DNA from: Bacteroidales bacterium | Lineage (GTDB): Bacteria > Bacteroidota > Bacteroidia > Bacteroidales > Paludibacteraceae | NCBI GenBank assembly: GCA_012837935.1 | Contig: DUQG01000038.1 | Span: 124,001 to 188,000 of the forward strand | DNA: 64,000 nucleotides | Direction of reading: 5' to 3' | Shown here: positions 8,057 to 47,039 of the stretch, in pieces | How the letters are laid out: every line of letters starts with the position of its first letter | Position numbering within the stretch: position 1 is the first letter of the stretch | Notes under the pieces: generated by a model | Databases searched by the model: none | The model's input: only the letters and a program-made list of their open reading frames with translations | Told to the model about the DNA's origin: nothing | Made by a program: the position numbers and the translations under genes

Positions 8057-8103
8057 AACTCGTTGATGTCTTGATTAAAAGACTATTGTTTTTGCCTAAA
8101 ATT

Positions 8104-8233
8104 AATTGCCACGGCTTGAAAGCCGTGGGTTAATGAATTAAATTCATAAGGCTTTAGCCAAAATTTATTTACTTTTGGGCTTAAGCCCATTTGATATTTG
8201 TTAATCATCCACGCCATAAATGGCGTGGCAATT
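8104..8233. repeat. Transposase-less REP-like element (AATTGCCACG...CGTGGCAATT)
   Basis: Outer palindromes CCACGGCTTGAAAGCCGTGG (8109-8128) and CCACGCCATAAATGGCGTGG (8209-8228); inner GGCTTTAGCC (8150-8159) and GGGCTTAAGCCC (8177-8188); same architecture as the ends of the transposase-bearing elements at 44211 and 46168. Confidence 0.8.
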
Positions 8234-8257
8234 GACAATGGTGTTGAATAAAATATT

Positions 8258-11895: not shown

Positions 11896-11948
11896 AATTT
11901 CATTTAAAAACAATATAATTATCCGTAATTATTCCTAATAATGTTTTC

Positions 11949-12076
11949 AGTTGCCACGACTTTTAAGTCGTGGATTTAATGAATCTAAAGAAAATGGCTT
12001 CAGCCAAAATTTACATAAGTTTGGGCTAAAGCCCGTATTTTACTTTCAAGCTACCCACGACTTAAAAGTCGTGGCT
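11949..12076. repeat. Transposase-less REP-like element
   Basis: CCACGACTTTTAAGTCGTGG (11954-11973), GGCTTCAGCC (11996-12005), GGGCTAAAGCCC (12023-12034), CCACGACTTAAAAGTCGTGG (12055-12074). Confidence 0.8.
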
Positions 12077-12128
12077 ATTTATTATAGGAAGCACTGCGAA
12101 TAACTATTAAAAAAATAAATCTCAATCA

Positions 12129-14460: not shown

Positions 14461-15000
14461 TTATTTTGCAGGTGCTGGTGTAGCAGGTTTTTTGTCTGTA
14501 AGATTTAATTTCTTCTTTACTAATGGTGTAATGTCATTAGCAGCCGCACCTGTGTGAACAATTGTTTGAGAAGCCATATCGAAGATATAAGCATAATTGT
14601 TTTCAGTAGCTACATCGCTGATAGCTTTTGTAATCTTCTCACGTATTGGTGCTAAAAGCTCTTCTTGTTTTTTCATCACATCCAACTGTGCCTGCTGTCT
14701 GGTGTTGGCAATGCGTTGCTCACGGTCTTGTAGTTCAGCCATACGAGCTTGTTTGATACTTTCAGACATGGTTGCTTGTTTGTCTTGAAAATCTTTAATT
14801 TGTGCAGTAAGTTCTTGTTGCATTTTGTCCAAAATTTCTTCCCATTCAGTACCTATGTCGTTAAGCTGCTTTTGAATGGTTTCAACTTCAGGCATCAATG
14901 CGAATATTTCTTGAGAATTTACGTGACCAATTTTTTGGTTTTGAGCCATCAAACCCATCGGTAAAACGGCTAGCAATAATAAAGCAATTTTTTTAATCAT
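14461..15000 (-). CDS. OmpH/Skp family periplasmic chaperone, copy 1
   Basis: MIKKIALLLLAVLPMGLMAQNQKIGHVNSQEIFALMPEVETIQ; coiled-coil body. The ORF-track start (15081) is in the upstream repeat; signal peptide starts at 15000. Confidence 0.85.
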   Translation of the reverse strand: MIKKIALLLLAVLPMGLMAQNQKIGHVNSQEIFALMPEVETIQKQLNDIGTEWEEILDKMQQELTAQIKDFQDKQATMSESIKQARMAELQDREQRIANTRQQAQLDVMKKQEELLAPIREKITKAISDVATENNYAYIFDMASQTIVHTGAAANDITPLVKKKLNLTDKKPATPAPAK

Positions 15001-15028
15001 TTTTCTTTTTATTAAGTAAGTTGTTATT

Positions 15029-15208
15029 GAACTTGTCTCGACTTTTAAAACATAGAGAACAATAGTTAAATATATGAGCATTTTTTGTTGTTTTTCGAGA
15101 ACATAGTAAAAAAATCGAAGATTTTTTTCGCTATTGTTTCCGAAACCATGAGAATATGCTCGTTTTTTTCTATGTTTGCTACTGTTTTGAAAAAGTCAAG
15201 ATGACTTC
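15029..15208. repeat. 180-bp foldback element, copy 1
   Basis: Near full-length imperfect palindrome centred on AAAAAAATC-gaa-GATTTTTTT (15108-15128); ~94% identical to 15802-15981. Confidence 0.85.
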
Positions 15209-15251
15209 ATTTTCTAATTAGTTTTATTAATTGTGTGCAAAAATATATAAT

Positions 15252-15767
15252 TTATTTTGAATAATCCAATTTTTTTAGCACTTCGTCACTGATGTCAATT
15301 TTAGGCGATACGAATATAGCGCTCATAGCCGATGATTTATCAAAAACCAAGTCCAAGCCTTTGGCGGTGCTTATTTCTTGTATAGCATTATAAACTTCAT
15401 CTTGAATTGGCTTCATCAGGCTTTCTCTCTTTTTGAAAAGTTCGCCGTCCGGACCAAAGTATTTACGTTTCAGCTCTTGTGCTGCTTTTTCTTTAGCTAT
15501 AATTTCATCTTCACGCTTTACTTTCATCTCATCAGACATAAAAACAAGCTCGGTCTGATAATTTTTGTAAAGTTGTTGAACTTCTTTCATCAGTTCATCC
15601 ACTTCTGCTTGCCATTTTTTAGAAACTTGGTTAAGCTGTTCGTTAGCACTTTCAAATGCCGGAATATTTTTCATAATATATGCCATATCTATTGTGGCAA
15701 ACTTCTGAGCTTGTGCGGCAAATCCTAAGCCTGTTATAAGGCAGAGTGTTAAAAGTATTTTTTTCAT
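15252..15767 (-). CDS. OmpH/Skp family periplasmic chaperone, copy 2
   Basis: MKKILLTLCLITGLGFAAQAQKFATIDMAYIMKNIPAFESANEQLNQ; start at 15767 rather than 15854. Confidence 0.85.
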   Translation of the reverse strand: MKKILLTLCLITGLGFAAQAQKFATIDMAYIMKNIPAFESANEQLNQVSKKWQAEVDELMKEVQQLYKNYQTELVFMSDEMKVKREDEIIAKEKAAQELKRKYFGPDGELFKKRESLMKPIQDEVYNAIQEISTAKGLDLVFDKSSAMSAIFVSPKIDISDEVLKKLDYSK

Positions 15768-15801
15768 ATTCGAAATAAAATTAATGGTAAAACTATATTT
15801 T

Positions 15802-15981
15802 GAACTCGTCTCGACTTTTAAAACATAGAGAACAATAGTTAAATATATGAGCATTTTTTATTGTTTTCCGTGAACATAGTAAAAAAATCTTCGATTTTTT
15901 TCGCTATTGTTTCCGAAACCACGAAAATATGCACGTTTTTTTCTATGTTTGCTACTGTTTTGAAAAAGTCAAGATAACTTC
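15802..15981. repeat. 180-bp foldback element, copy 2
   Basis: Same length and ends (GAACT...ACTTC) as copy 1; central loop is ttc instead of gaa. Confidence 0.85.
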
Positions 15982-16158
15982 TTTTAAAGCAAAATTACGA
16001 TTATATAAATATCAAAATCTTTGCCAAAGTTTTTTTGAAAGTTTATAAAGCGTCTTTAATTATGAATTATGAATTATAAATGATGAAAGAATAAGGAATC
16101 CTTTGCGACTTAGTGTCTTAGCGTGAATTAGTTTACTCATTTTCACATTTCCACATTT

Positions 16159-18864
16159 TTAAAGTTCTTTTCCTATTACAAAGTGGAATTCACCGCCGTT
16201 TGCTTTGGTATCACCTACTTGCGGGTCAAATCCGTATCCCCAGTCAATACCCATAATACCAAACATTTGAAGATAAATTCGAGCACCAATTCCGGCAGCT
16301 CGTTTAAGTTTGAATGGGTTGTAGTCAGAAAGTTTGTTAAAGCTGTTTCCTGCTTCAAAGAAAGCCAACGCCCAAATAGTGGCACTTTGTTCTAACGTAA
16401 TTGGGTATCTCAGCTCAAAAGTAAATTTATTGTACAAATAAGCTGCTCTACGTCCATATTCGTCGTAAGGTGTAAGTGAGCCGGTTTCGTAACCACGCAT
16501 GGAAATATATTCGTTGGCATATCCGCCATATCCTGTCATTCCATCACCACCAAACATATACGTTCCGAAAGGTGTGCGAGCATTTTTATTGTAATGACCT
16601 ACGAATGCAAATTCAGCACGTGCCATCAGCACTGGAGTACGGTCAATAGGCAATAACGGCGTAAATGTTTTGGCGCTAAATTTCCATTTATGATACTCTA
16701 TCCATCTGTATCTTTCAGCATCCGTCATTTTTGGGTCGCTATAATTCTTATTGTTGAACATAGAGTAGGGTGGTGTAACTTCCAATCCAAAAGAGAATGT
16801 AGAACCTCTACGGGTAAATAGTGGGTTGTCAATAGAATTTCTGCTAAGTACCAGGTTTAAGCTCAAGTTGTTAAAGTTACCATTGGATACGTTTGTTTCA
16901 TACTGATACCAGTCTTTTATCATATAGCGCTGATAGCCCAGTTGTGCGTATATGGTAAAAAAGTTATCCGGCCAATTTAAGCGTTTTCCGTATCCGGCAG
17001 AAGCACCTAGTACGCGGAAATATTTATTTTTGTCAATCTCGCTTTCGAAGCTGTTTTGCATACCGTATCCGTAACCATAGTCACCATATCCACCATAACC
17101 GTATGGATTGTAGCCATATCCGTATCCGCCGTAACCACCGTATCCGTATGGATTGTAACCATATCCACCGTAATTATACATATTTCGGTACGACTCCAAG
17201 TAGCGCTTACTCATACCTTTAGTTGTTGAGTAATACAATGAGAGAGAAAGCGAATTAGGACGCTTTCCACCCAGCCATGGCTCTAAAAAAGAAAGACTGA
17301 ATGACGAATAGTAATTTCCGTTGGTACGTGCGTCTATGGTAAAGGTTTGTCCTTCGCCTTGTGGTACAATTCGGTAAGTCTCAGGCTTAAATAGGTTTTG
17401 AATGGCAAAGTTGGTAAATTTCAATCCAACACTTCCTACCAATCCGGCTGCACCCCATCCGGCAGAAAATTCAATTTGGTCGCTTGATTTTGTTTCTAAA
17501 TTATAAGTAATATCTACCGTCCCATTTTCTTCGTCAGACTCAATACCTACGTTTTTATACAACTTTTCATTATCGAAATGCGACATTTGGGCTAGGTATT
17601 GCAACGAATTGATGATATTACTTTGGCTGTATAGAGCGCCCGGTTTGGTGTACAATTCACGGCGAACCACGTTTTCATATACACGCGTGTTTCCTGATAT
17701 TTTTATATCGTTGATAGTAGCTTGTTTACCTTCATACACCCGCAGTTCAAAATTTATCGTATCATTCTCGATAGAGGTTTCTACAGGAATAATTCTGGAA
17801 AAAAGATATCCGTTGTCTTGATAATGTTTGTTGATAGCTTCATGCTGGTCATTTTGTAGGCGATCCATCAGAAGCTTGTAGTTATAAATATCCCCTTTTT
17901 TAATTCCCAATCGGCTACTGAGGTAGTCATGCGGATAAATAGTATTACCTATCCAACTAATATCTCCAAAGTAGTATTTATCACCCTCATGTACAGTCAG
18001 GTAAACATCTACCGTTTTGGCATCTACATCTACTACGCTATCCGAAACCACGTAAGCATCGCGGTATCCGTGTTCGTTGTATGCTTCTACAATAAGTTTT
18101 TTGTCTTCTTCGTATTTTTCGCGAATGAATTTTTTTGTACGGAAAATATTTCGAATTTTATTACTGTTCGTCTTTTTCATTGCTTTGTCAATCTGCCAAT
18201 CCGTCAGAGCAGAGTTGCCTTTCACATGAATACTCCGAACCTTTGTTTTTTCTTTCTTGTCCACCTCAATATCCACTTTTACGTAGTTTGGTTGCTCAGG
18301 GTCGTCTTTTTGGAATATTTGGATATCAGCATTAGCAAATCCTTTTTCGTCCAAGTATCTTTTTATTTCAAGCTTAGCACGGTCAGACATATTTGGACTT
18401 ATTTGTTTGTCTTTCTGAATGCCGATACGATTAGTTAACTCTTCTATTTCATTCTTTTTCAATCCTTTAAATTCAATTTCAGACACTCGAGGACGCATGG
18501 CAAGTTTAATGGTAATCCAAACTTTATCACCTTCTATTTTAGTCCAAAAAATATCTACATTGGAAAATAAAGATTGTTCCCAGAATTTTTTAACCGCTTG
18601 TGTGATTTCTACTCCCGGAGGTGCCGGCAATGTGATTTGCTGACCTACGGAAAGACCTGAAAAGCTAATAAGTAGGTAATCCTCGTAAGCATCGGCACCT
18701 TCTACCTGAATATCGGCAATGGTATAAACTTTAGGACGCATAAAGTCCATAATCGGCGCTTCTTGAGAATTGTCTGTGGTGTTATCTGTGTCAGTAGTTT
18801 GAGCAGATGTGTTCAAACCAAAAATCAGTAGAAAGCAAAATATAAGTAAACTTTTGTATTGCAT
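16159..18864 (-). CDS. bamA: Outer membrane protein assembly factor BamA
   Basis: POTRA repeats, C-terminal Omp85 barrel (MRGYETGSLTP; AGIGARIYLQMFGIMGIDWGYGF). Gly/Tyr-rich insertion in the barrel region. Confidence 0.93.
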   Translation of the reverse strand: MQYKSLLIFCFLLIFGLNTSAQTTDTDNTTDNSQEAPIMDFMRPKVYTIADIQVEGADAYEDYLLISFSGLSVGQQITLPAPPGVEITQAVKKFWEQSLFSNVDIFWTKIEGDKVWITIKLAMRPRVSEIEFKGLKKNEIEELTNRIGIQKDKQISPNMSDRAKLEIKRYLDEKGFANADIQIFQKDDPEQPNYVKVDIEVDKKEKTKVRSIHVKGNSALTDWQIDKAMKKTNSNKIRNIFRTKKFIREKYEEDKKLIVEAYNEHGYRDAYVVSDSVVDVDAKTVDVYLTVHEGDKYYFGDISWIGNTIYPHDYLSSRLGIKKGDIYNYKLLMDRLQNDQHEAINKHYQDNGYLFSRIIPVETSIENDTINFELRVYEGKQATINDIKISGNTRVYENVVRRELYTKPGALYSQSNIINSLQYLAQMSHFDNEKLYKNVGIESDEENGTVDITYNLETKSSDQIEFSAGWGAAGLVGSVGLKFTNFAIQNLFKPETYRIVPQGEGQTFTIDARTNGNYYSSFSLSFLEPWLGGKRPNSLSLSLYYSTTKGMSKRYLESYRNMYNYGGYGYNPYGYGGYGGYGYGYNPYGYGGYGDYGYGYGMQNSFESEIDKNKYFRVLGASAGYGKRLNWPDNFFTIYAQLGYQRYMIKDWYQYETNVSNGNFNNLSLNLVLSRNSIDNPLFTRRGSTFSFGLEVTPPYSMFNNKNYSDPKMTDAERYRWIEYHKWKFSAKTFTPLLPIDRTPVLMARAEFAFVGHYNKNARTPFGTYMFGGDGMTGYGGYANEYISMRGYETGSLTPYDEYGRRAAYLYNKFTFELRYPITLEQSATIWALAFFEAGNSFNKLSDYNPFKLKRAAGIGARIYLQMFGIMGIDWGYGFDPQVGDTKANGGEFHFVIGKEL

Positions 18865-44157: not shown

Positions 44158-44210
44158 ATGTAGTTAATTTGTTGATTAGTTAATTAGTTAATTGAGTTAT
44201 ATTTCGTATT

Positions 44211-44790
44211 AATTGCCACGCCTTTTAAGGCGTGGATTATGGTTGATAATAGGAATTGGCTTTAGCCGAAATTTACTTATCTTTCAGATTTTGAAAATTA
44301 TACTTTTGAATAAATTCATCGTACTCTTGTGCAAAAGTCTTTTTCTTATGATGATTTTCTTGATTGATAATATAGTTTCGAACTGTTTCTAACATTGATT
44401 CTGAAACTGAAACCGCAAAATACTCATCCTGCCATCCAAATTTATCATTAATCAAGTTATTTTGGTTAATCCAGTATGACGATTCGCCTTTTATCAACTG
44501 TACTACTTTTTCGATAGTTTGATTGGATGAAAGAGAAACCAAACAATGACAATGTTCCGCATGTCCGTTTACAACATCAATGTAAATGCCTTTCTTGTCT
44601 GCTTTTTCTTTAATATGCTTCCAAACTTTTACACGCAATTCGGGTGTGTACAGCAAAGGTAATCTATTATAAGTTGACCAAACTAAATGAATATGTACTT
44701 TTATATATGGCATAAAGTTAGTATTATAAATTTTGGCTAAAGCCCATTATATCTATTTTTTTGAACCACGACTTAAAAGTCGTGGTAATT
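44211..44790 (-). mobile_element. IS200/IS605-like REP-bounded element, copy A (580 bp)
   Basis: CCACGCCTTTTAAGGCGTGG (44216-44235) and GGCTTTAGCC (44258-44267) on one side; GGCTAAAGCC (44735-44744) and CCACGACTTAAAAGTCGTGG (44766-44785) on the other; Y1 transposase between. Confidence 0.85.
44273..44713 (-). CDS. IS200/IS605-like Y1 (HUH) transposase
   Basis: HIHLVWSTYNRLPLL; HUH-type EHCHCLV; YIINQENHHKKKTFAQEYDEF with putative catalytic Tyr. Confidence 0.92.
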   Translation of the reverse strand: MPYIKVHIHLVWSTYNRLPLLYTPELRVKVWKHIKEKADKKGIYIDVVNGHAEHCHCLVSLSSNQTIEKVVQLIKGESSYWINQNNLINDKFGWQDEYFAVSVSESMLETVRNYIINQENHHKKKTFAQEYDEFIQKYNFQNLKDK

Positions 44791-44903: not shown

Positions 44904-46157
44904 CTACTTCACAGACGGCGATAAGCATCTATACAAAATCTCTCTAAAATCTCCTGTTTCAAAAACGATAAAATCGGCTTTATTTCCTTTTTTCAAAACA
45001 CCTATATCATCTCGCTTCAATGCTTTTGCAGCACGACAAGTCAAGGCAGCCCAAGTTTCAGCCATTGAGAGTTTTTCATATGCACCGAGAATGGCGGCTT
45101 GCACGAGCAGATTTCCCATGGGTGCACTGCCCGGATTCCAATCCGATGCGATAACCAATGAACAACCCGCATCCAACAGTTTTCGTGCAGGTGCAAATCG
45201 TTCGCCCAATCCCAACGATGCACCCGGAAGTGCCACAGGAATCACATAGCTTTTTGAAAGTATTTCAATCTCTTTCTTATCTGCATATTCGAGATGGTCA
45301 ATGGAAACCGCCTCAAATTCAGCAGCCAAAGATGCACAGTTATTGGAAAATTGGTCGCCGTGAATAACTACATCAAAGCCCATTTTTTTTGCTTCTGCAA
45401 GATAGTATTTGGAATCGTCAATAGAAAAAGCGCTTTTTTCCACAAAAATATCTACACGGTTTGCCAAGTTTTGTCGCTTTACTTCGGGAAGTAAATTTTC
45501 AACAATATGCTGTAAATATTCCAGCTCATTCCCGTCAAAGTCTTTCGGTTTCATATGTGCCGCTAAGCAAGTTGGGATAAGCTCCGCACGAGATTTTTCA
45601 TTTGCAAATCGGATGGCTTTCAGCATTTTCAGCTCTTGCTCAACCGAAAGTCCATATCCGCTTTTTACTTCAATAGTTGTAACACCTTGTTTGTAGAGCT
45701 TTTCAGCATGTTCAAAGGTCAGTTTCGCCAATTCCTCTACGCTTGCTTCACGGGTTTTCTGTACGGTATCCCAAATTCCACCACCAATTTCCGCAATTTC
45801 CAGATAGGTTTTCCCCGCTAAGCGCATCGCGTAATCCCTCGCTCGCGAGCCTGCCCAGCAAATATGCGTATGTACGTCAATCATTCCCGGCAGGCATACA
45901 TTTTCCCCTTCAAAAAACAGCACTTTCGCATCCGGATTTTCTTTCCGCAATTTTTCAAAATTTCTTACTTCCCAAATACGTCCGTCTTTATGTAAAATCC
46001 CTCCGTTTGGAATAATCGCCAATTGTTCATCAGAAATTTTTCCTCGAAGAGGAAGATTATCCATGGTCAGAAGTTGGGTGAATGGACCTGAGAGAGTTGC
46101 TCCCCCTAAAGGGGAAGTTTGGCTAAGGTTGATTGGTTGATTGGTTGATTGGTTCAT
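44904..46157 (-). CDS. hutI: Imidazolonepropionase
   Basis: CLPGMIDVHTHICWAGSRARDYAMRLAGKTYLEIAEIGGGIWDTVQKTR; IASDWNPGSAPMGNL. First ~24 aa are encoded by repeat DNA. Confidence 0.92.
   Translation of the reverse strand: MNQSTNQPINLSQTSPLGGATLSGPFTQLLTMDNLPLRGKISDEQLAIIPNGGILHKDGRIWEVRNFEKLRKENPDAKVLFFEGENVCLPGMIDVHTHICWAGSRARDYAMRLAGKTYLEIAEIGGGIWDTVQKTREASVEELAKLTFEHAEKLYKQGVTTIEVKSGYGLSVEQELKMLKAIRFANEKSRAELIPTCLAAHMKPKDFDGNELEYLQHIVENLLPEVKRQNLANRVDIFVEKSAFSIDDSKYYLAEAKKMGFDVVIHGDQFSNNCASLAAEFEAVSIDHLEYADKKEIEILSKSYVIPVALPGASLGLGERFAPARKLLDAGCSLVIASDWNPGSAPMGNLLVQAAILGAYEKLSMAETWAALTCRAAKALKRDDIGVLKKGNKADFIVFETGDFREILYRCLSPSVK
46131..46154. repeat. Octamer tandem repeat (GATTGGTT)x3 abutting the hutI start codon
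   Basis: gattggtt gattggtt gattggtt then cat (start codon on the minus strand). Confidence 0.9.
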
Positions 46158-46167
46158 ATTTCGTTTT

Positions 46168-46747
46168 AATTGCCACGCCTTTTAAGGCGTGGATTATGTT
46201 TGATAATAGGAATTGGCTTTAGCCGAAATTTACTTATCTTTCAGATTTTGAAAATTATACTTTTGAATAAATTCATCGTACTCTTGTGTAAAAGTTTTTT
46301 TCTTATGATGATTTTCTTGATTGATAATATAGTTTCGGACTGTTTCTAACATTGATTCTGAAACCGAAACCGCAAAATACTCATCCTGCCATCCAAATTT
46401 GTCATTAATCAAGTTATTTTGATTTATCCAGTATGATGATTCACCTTTTATCAACTGTACTACTTTTTCGATAGTTTGGTCAGATGAAAGTGAAACCAAA
46501 CAATGACAATGTTCCGCATGACCGTTCACGACATCAATGTAAATGCCTTTCTTGTCTGCATTCTCTTTAATATGCTTCCAAACTTTTACACGCAATTCGG
46601 GTGTATGCAAGAGTGGTAATCTATTGTAAGTTGTCCAAACCAGATGAATATGTACTTTTATAAATGGCATAATGTCAATATTGTAAATTTTGGCTAAAGC
46701 CCGTTGTATCTATTAGTTTGAACCACGACTTAAAAGTCGTGGTAATT
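46168..46747 (-). mobile_element. IS200/IS605-like REP-bounded element, copy B (580 bp)
   Basis: CCACGCCTTTTAAGGCGTGG (46173-46192), GGCTTTAGCC (46215-46224), transposase, GGCTAAAGCC (46692-46701), CCACGACTTAAAAGTCGTGG (46723-46742). Confidence 0.85.
46230..46670 (-). CDS. IS200/IS605-like Y1 (HUH) transposase, second copy
   Basis: Differs from the 44273 copy at only about six of 146 residues. Confidence 0.92.
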   Translation of the reverse strand: MPFIKVHIHLVWTTYNRLPLLHTPELRVKVWKHIKENADKKGIYIDVVNGHAEHCHCLVSLSSDQTIEKVVQLIKGESSYWINQNNLINDKFGWQDEYFAVSVSESMLETVRNYIINQENHHKKKTFTQEYDEFIQKYNFQNLKDK

Positions 46748-46854
46748 GATAGCTTGCTAACTATCATTTGTGTTCGAGAATTAGTGATAATTTATCTCTT
46801 AATTTTGATAATGTATCATGCAAATAGCAAAATTTGACATTGACGCCGTTTTTC

Positions 46855-47028
46855 AGTTGCCACGCCTTTTAAGGCGTGGATTATGATAGAGAATAGGGAA
46901 TTGGCTTTAGCCGAAATTTACACCTCTTTGAATTTTTGAAAAACAAATGACAAAATTTATGCTATAAACTTTGGCTAAAGTACGTTGTAGCTGTTAGTTT
47001 GAACCACGACTTTTAAGTCGTGGTGATT
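46855..47028. repeat. Transposase-less derivative of the IS200-like element
   Basis: CCACGCCTTTTAAGGCGTGG (46860-46879), GGCTTTAGCC (46903-46912), degenerate internal segment, GGCTAAAGta (46973-46982), CCACGACTTTTAAGTCGTGG (47004-47023). Confidence 0.8.
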
Positions 47029-47039
47029 GAAGCTTTGTC

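Follow-up and report, generated by a model that had tools for sequence, protein, structure and literature searches.

Two 180-bp blocks in front of the paralogous skp genes of a Paludibacteraceae-type bacterium are very probably independent insertions of an IS5-type MITE

The two 180-bp blocks at the bamA-skp-skp locus can be explained, with high confidence, as two independent insertions of the same non-autonomous MITE of 180 bp, most likely mobilised by an IS5-family transposase, which lie between promoter-like sequence and start codon at both skp genes. The comparison of sequences has established a repeat family with defined ends, 3-bp target duplications, empty sites in relatives, an independent origin of the two copies and a matching insertion sequence (IS) in related genomes. 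The relevant part of the window, i.e. the whole stretch of 64,000 nucleotides that was analysed, contains the following features.

14461-15000, minus strand: skp2 (OmpH/Skp, PF03938)
15029-15208, minus strand: copy B of the MITE (MITE B), 180 bp, in the skp1-skp2 gap
15252-15767, minus strand: skp1 (OmpH/Skp, PF03938)
15802-15981, minus strand: copy A of the MITE (MITE A), 180 bp, in the bamA-skp1 gap
16159-18864, minus strand: bamA (POTRA domains, PF07244)

Both blocks were found to be 180 bp long, as the original prediction had it, and the roughly 11 differences counted between them proved to be exactly 11 in a gap-free alignment, a match well beyond chance (blastn E 7e-77). They lie 773 bp apart and share one orientation, each before one of the paralogous skp genes. 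The start codons of these genes, at 15000 and 15767, follow 28 bp and 34 bp downstream, in agreement with the proposed distances; these starts are backed by signal peptides and agree with those of all congeners. The assignment of both adjacent genes to the OmpH/Skp family was confirmed (PF03938, E 2e-35 and 1e-37), as was the low similarity of their products (about 27% identity). Each block was also rightly described as imperfectly palindromic from end to end, with a match of about 72% to its own reverse complement, and the suggested folding of the two gave -44.8 kcal/mol (z -5.3) and -45.6 kcal/mol (z -5.6) against a background of dinucleotide shuffles. The G+C content of the MITE is 29% vs 39% in the window, and no transposase ORF is present inside its 180 bp. 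The central loop is flipped between the two copies (CGAAG vs CTTCG, window 15108-15128 and 15881-15901); other copies show this too, and it looks as though the foldback were inverting at its tip. An ATG within the MITE opens a frame, MLIYLTIVLYVLKVETSS, which runs in frame into each skp gene (14461-15081 and 15252-15854), and the same frame read in other MITE copies meets a stop within 18-52 codons. Automatic annotation may mistakenly extend the starts of genes in this way.

A search of the host genome with the block, a draft of 2.8 Mb in 85 contigs, returned 61 matches, which fall at about 40 separate sites, 29 of these with long matches, so that the block is a dispersed repeat. No longer ORF contains any of the 29 best copies, of which 21 are placed between tandem, 6 between divergent and 1 between convergent gene pairs, and at the tandem pairs the orientation is mixed (12 with transcription, 9 against). 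Full-length relatives with best conserved ends were found in three of the seven congeners searched (G001, G005 and G006), and a fourth, G004, gave only short matches to the MITE ends. The plasmid and phage collections searched gave no match, and an Rfam search of the window returned no RNA family for the blocks, only two tRNAs being matched. Longer elements, which single-end matches at the contig ends of one congener had suggested, were rejected, as assembly breaks at repeats explain them.

The ends of the MITE are GAAGTCATCTTGACTTTT and GAACTCGTCTCGACTTTT, which form 18-bp imperfect terminal inverted repeats on both sides, and in the window the ends and the flanking target duplications are placed as follows.

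15026-15028: target-site duplication ATT, left side of MITE B
15029-15046, plus strand: terminal inverted repeat GAACTTGTCTCGACTTTT of MITE B
15191-15208, minus strand: terminal inverted repeat GAAGTCATCTTGACTTTT of MITE B, matching the ends of the IS5-family IS of congeners base for base
15209-15211: target-site duplication ATT, right side of MITE B
15799-15801: target-site duplication TTT, left side of MITE A
15802-15819, plus strand: terminal inverted repeat GAACTCGTCTCGACTTTT of MITE A
15964-15981, minus strand: terminal inverted repeat GAAGTTATCTTGACTTTT of MITE A
15982-15984: target-site duplication TTT, right side of MITE A

Identical 3-bp flanks, the target-site duplications expected of a mobile element in the original prediction, were observed in 21 of the 23 copies from four species in which both ends are recognisable, and were missing in the other 2. 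Randomly re-paired flanks gave a mean of 2.35 identical pairs and a maximum of 8 in 10,000 trials.

The origin of the two neighbouring copies was then considered against two other explanations. The closest relative of MITE A is a copy on another contig (95.6%) and that of MITE B is a different copy elsewhere (96.1%), whereas A and B are only 93.9% alike. These closer relatives elsewhere, together with the different duplications (TTT and ATT), point to two insertions, exclude a local duplication and make conversion unnecessary. A single insertion, with the element and skp gene then duplicated locally or with conversion between neighbours, could be suspected from same-orientation copies 773 bp apart before paralogous genes; however, the repeat goes no further than the element ends, the 3-bp duplication differs between the copies, each of them has a closer relative elsewhere, and all congeners have both skp genes without the elements, which leaves this course of events very improbable. 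An artefact of assembly or collapse deserves still less credence: the genome is a draft and some congener copies lie at contig ends, but the two copies, each with unique flanks and a clean target duplication, are told apart by 11 positions and are located within a 228-kb contig. From about 40 copies in 2.8 Mb, an estimate not restricted to intergenic DNA, about 0.4 pairs as close as this one would be expected, and one such pair in the genome is not surprising.

The bamA-skp-skp order is common to all 8 genomes of the genus (the window genome and seven congeners), and the comparison of this locus with relatives, as had been recommended, has shown that both skp gaps are empty of the MITE in 7/7 congeners. 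The skp-skp gap measures 251 bp here vs 44-70 bp in congeners, and subtraction of 183 bp (the 180-bp MITE and the 3-bp duplication) gives 68 bp, which restores the spacing of the congeners. Of the two origins offered in the original prediction, a MITE-like element inserted twice is thus the one supported, by about 40 copies, duplications in 21/23 and seven empty congeners. All eight genomes share two sequences upstream of the insertions, TTTGGCAAAGNTTTTGATAT at skp1 and a TAnnTTTG box at skp2, with these positions in the window.

15238-15245, minus strand: TATTTTTG, a Bacteroidetes-type -7 box (TAnnTTTG) upstream of skp2 in 8/8 genomes, with MITE B between box and skp2
16009-16028, minus strand: TTTGGCAAAGATTTTGATAT, a block upstream of skp1 kept in 8/8 genus genomes, with MITE A between block and skp1

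As conserved sequences lie upstream of both insertions, the MITEs are situated between promoter-like sequence and start codon. TTTGGCAAAGATTTTGATAT/TTTGGCAAAGNTTTTGATAT and the TAnnTTTG box are putative promoters, as judged from the Bacteroidetes consensus and from conservation. TTTGGCAAAGATTTTGATAT (16009-16028) also resembles a sigma-54 -24/-12 site in which GA replaces GC. A sense promoter within the MITE was considered and rejected, as the only TAnnTTTG boxes in the copies face away from skp.

A search of the relatives with the end sequence has revealed a candidate partner. In congener G005, two perfect inverted copies of GAAGTCATCTTGACTTTT are found 944 bp apart; the ends of this IS are identical over 18/18 bp to one MITE end, it is flanked by an ATT duplication, and its transposase (DUF4096 + DDE_Tnp_1, IS5 family) has a reading frame broken by one stop. 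Congener G001 has the same IS over two contigs, with the same ends and an unbroken frame of 243 aa up to the contig end. The partner transposase scores over the cut-offs for DUF4096 (56.3 bits) and DDE_Tnp_1 (34.2 bits), and the NF033580 model gave 109.8 bits against a cut-off of 110 with a sequence cut by the contig end. A more distant genome of another family carries an IS5 relative of 913 bp with a 60% identical transposase and a GCT duplication, the ends of which, GAAGTCATCTCGACT, are almost those of the congener IS. Such ends and 3-bp duplications are hence those of an IS5-family clade. Only the outer ~18 bp are common to IS and MITE and the cores are unrelated; hence the MITE is not a simple internal deletion of the G005/G001 IS. 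No transposase homologue or DUF4096 domain was found in the 85-contig draft of the host genome, where the transposase may have been lost or may fall in a gap.

As the 18-bp ends of the MITE are those of a same-genus IS5-family IS, this IS is the likely source of the transposase, judging by sequence. An IS5-family transposase acting in trans would most likely have cut and joined the MITE, with 3 bp of the target duplicated at each insertion. At both skp1 and skp2 the element came to lie between the putative promoter and the start codon, so that the leaders of both transcripts probably contain a long, AU-rich hairpin. Two other elements with such ends were also observed: a further element of ~180 bp with the same ends and a different core is present in three copies in G005 (L218, L219 and L220), and a mini-element of 50 bp from a different family of the order (L222, G055:C102:123654-123703) has same-type ends nearly back to back, with AAT on both sides.

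MITEs with ends matching IS5-family ISs are already known from Porphyromonas gingivalis (BrickBuilt and others; PMC4596501). BrickBuilt, MITE239/700 and MITEPgRS/464 resemble the present family as Bacteroidales MITEs of intergenic location with short target duplications, in about 10-20 copies and with terminal repeats that match IS5-family ISs in the genome that carries them (PMC4596501). In contrast, BrickBuilt, compared by its published ends alone, has GAGACCTTTGCA ends, 4-bp duplications and 23-nt tandem repeats, so that the skp MITE family differs from the P. gingivalis MITEs in sequence, target length and internal structure. With the IS5 family (NCBIfam NF033580 transpos_IS5_3, DUF4096 + DDE_Tnp_1) the MITE shares an identical 18-bp end, GAAGTCATCTTGACTTTT, and 3-bp duplications, whereas it lacks a transposase gene, one of its ends (GAACTCGTCTCGACTTTT) has diverged and its palindromic core is unrelated. 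The Correia repeats of Neisseria (204 bp) are similar in size, in being intergenic foldbacks and in lying often directly upstream of genes, and they provide a model for effects via promoters or RNase III; they belong to another host, and the likeness is one of description. A small literature search found no description of the skp MITE family.

The other origin that had been proposed, a regulatory RNA leader of skp kept homogeneous by gene conversion, fails, as the block is absent at the skp genes of congeners and the two copies are not closest relatives. Such a cis-regulatory leader (e.g. for envelope stress) would agree with a stable foldback 28-34 nt upstream of both starts, in the same orientation and downstream of conserved promoter-like boxes. 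However, it is missing at skp in 7/7 congeners, ~40 copies stand next to unrelated genes, the orientation at tandem gene pairs is mixed (12 vs 9), and the target duplications differ, with the nearest relatives elsewhere. Moreover, the covariation term is a mere -0.35 kcal/mol; double changes were detected in 4/46 predicted pairs, mostly as one event between subfamilies, and with hardly any compensatory change a selected RNA is without support. We therefore attach practically no credence to a conserved leader. A MITE later co-opted to tune bamA-skp-skp expression, as an RNase III site or a translation-modulating leader in the manner of Correia repeats, is a possible though unlikely extension of the insertion reading. 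The placement downstream of conserved promoter-like boxes and ahead of the start codons, the folds of about -45 kcal/mol and the precedent of RNase III cleavage in Correia-bearing transcripts (PMC10969869) would be consistent with it; on the other hand, there is no orientation bias, covariation is absent and the precedent stems from other organisms. By this analogy the MITEs may possibly exert a secondary effect on skp expression, and it is by inference that we speak of their neutrality for Skp expression or of any effect on it.

The MITE copies themselves contain further palindromes. A unit of ~20 bp (TCCGCCnnnnTCGGACAAGT, or a form ending in ...ACAG) lies exactly between ACA and TAG (CTA and TGT) inside copies of the host genome (L010, L011, L012, L024 and L039) and of G005 (L080 and L096), in both orientations and at times in tandem; it is also found outside MITEs (L044:1501-1518, L049:1501-1518 and L063). 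About six ACA/TAG motifs are present per MITE. The MITE serving at these motifs as a landing pad for this second palindromic unit is a doubtful proposition, which we rate somewhat below co-option; if true, the TCCGCCnnnnTCGGACAAGT unit would be an extremely small site-specific mobile palindrome. At the MITE centre in L009, L031, L096 (about 590) and L217, an extra CCTGCCTGC.GCAGGCAGG palindrome replaces the short loop. A second family of intergenic palindromic repeats, GCCACGACTTTTAAGTCGTGG + GGCTAAAGCC, occurs in the window at 8100-8242, 11945-12088, 44207-44297, 46164-46254 and 46851-47037; its palindrome is found at dozens of places genome-wide and the reversed control gave none. The window also holds a direct repeat of 300 bp, 95% identical, at 44171-44470 and 46128-46427, 1957 bp apart.

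This study describes a MITE family and its likely source IS for a genus of Paludibacteraceae-type bacteria. The better conservation of the non-coding blocks than of the adjacent genes, which had drawn attention to them, reflects recent transposition and not selection, and the outcome warns against the annotation of a skp leader RNA. The MITE is an ordinary genomic parasite rather than a new switch of gene control. With two copies placed by nature between putative promoter and start codon of outer-membrane biogenesis genes, the locus offers a simple case for the tolerance of large leader hairpins.
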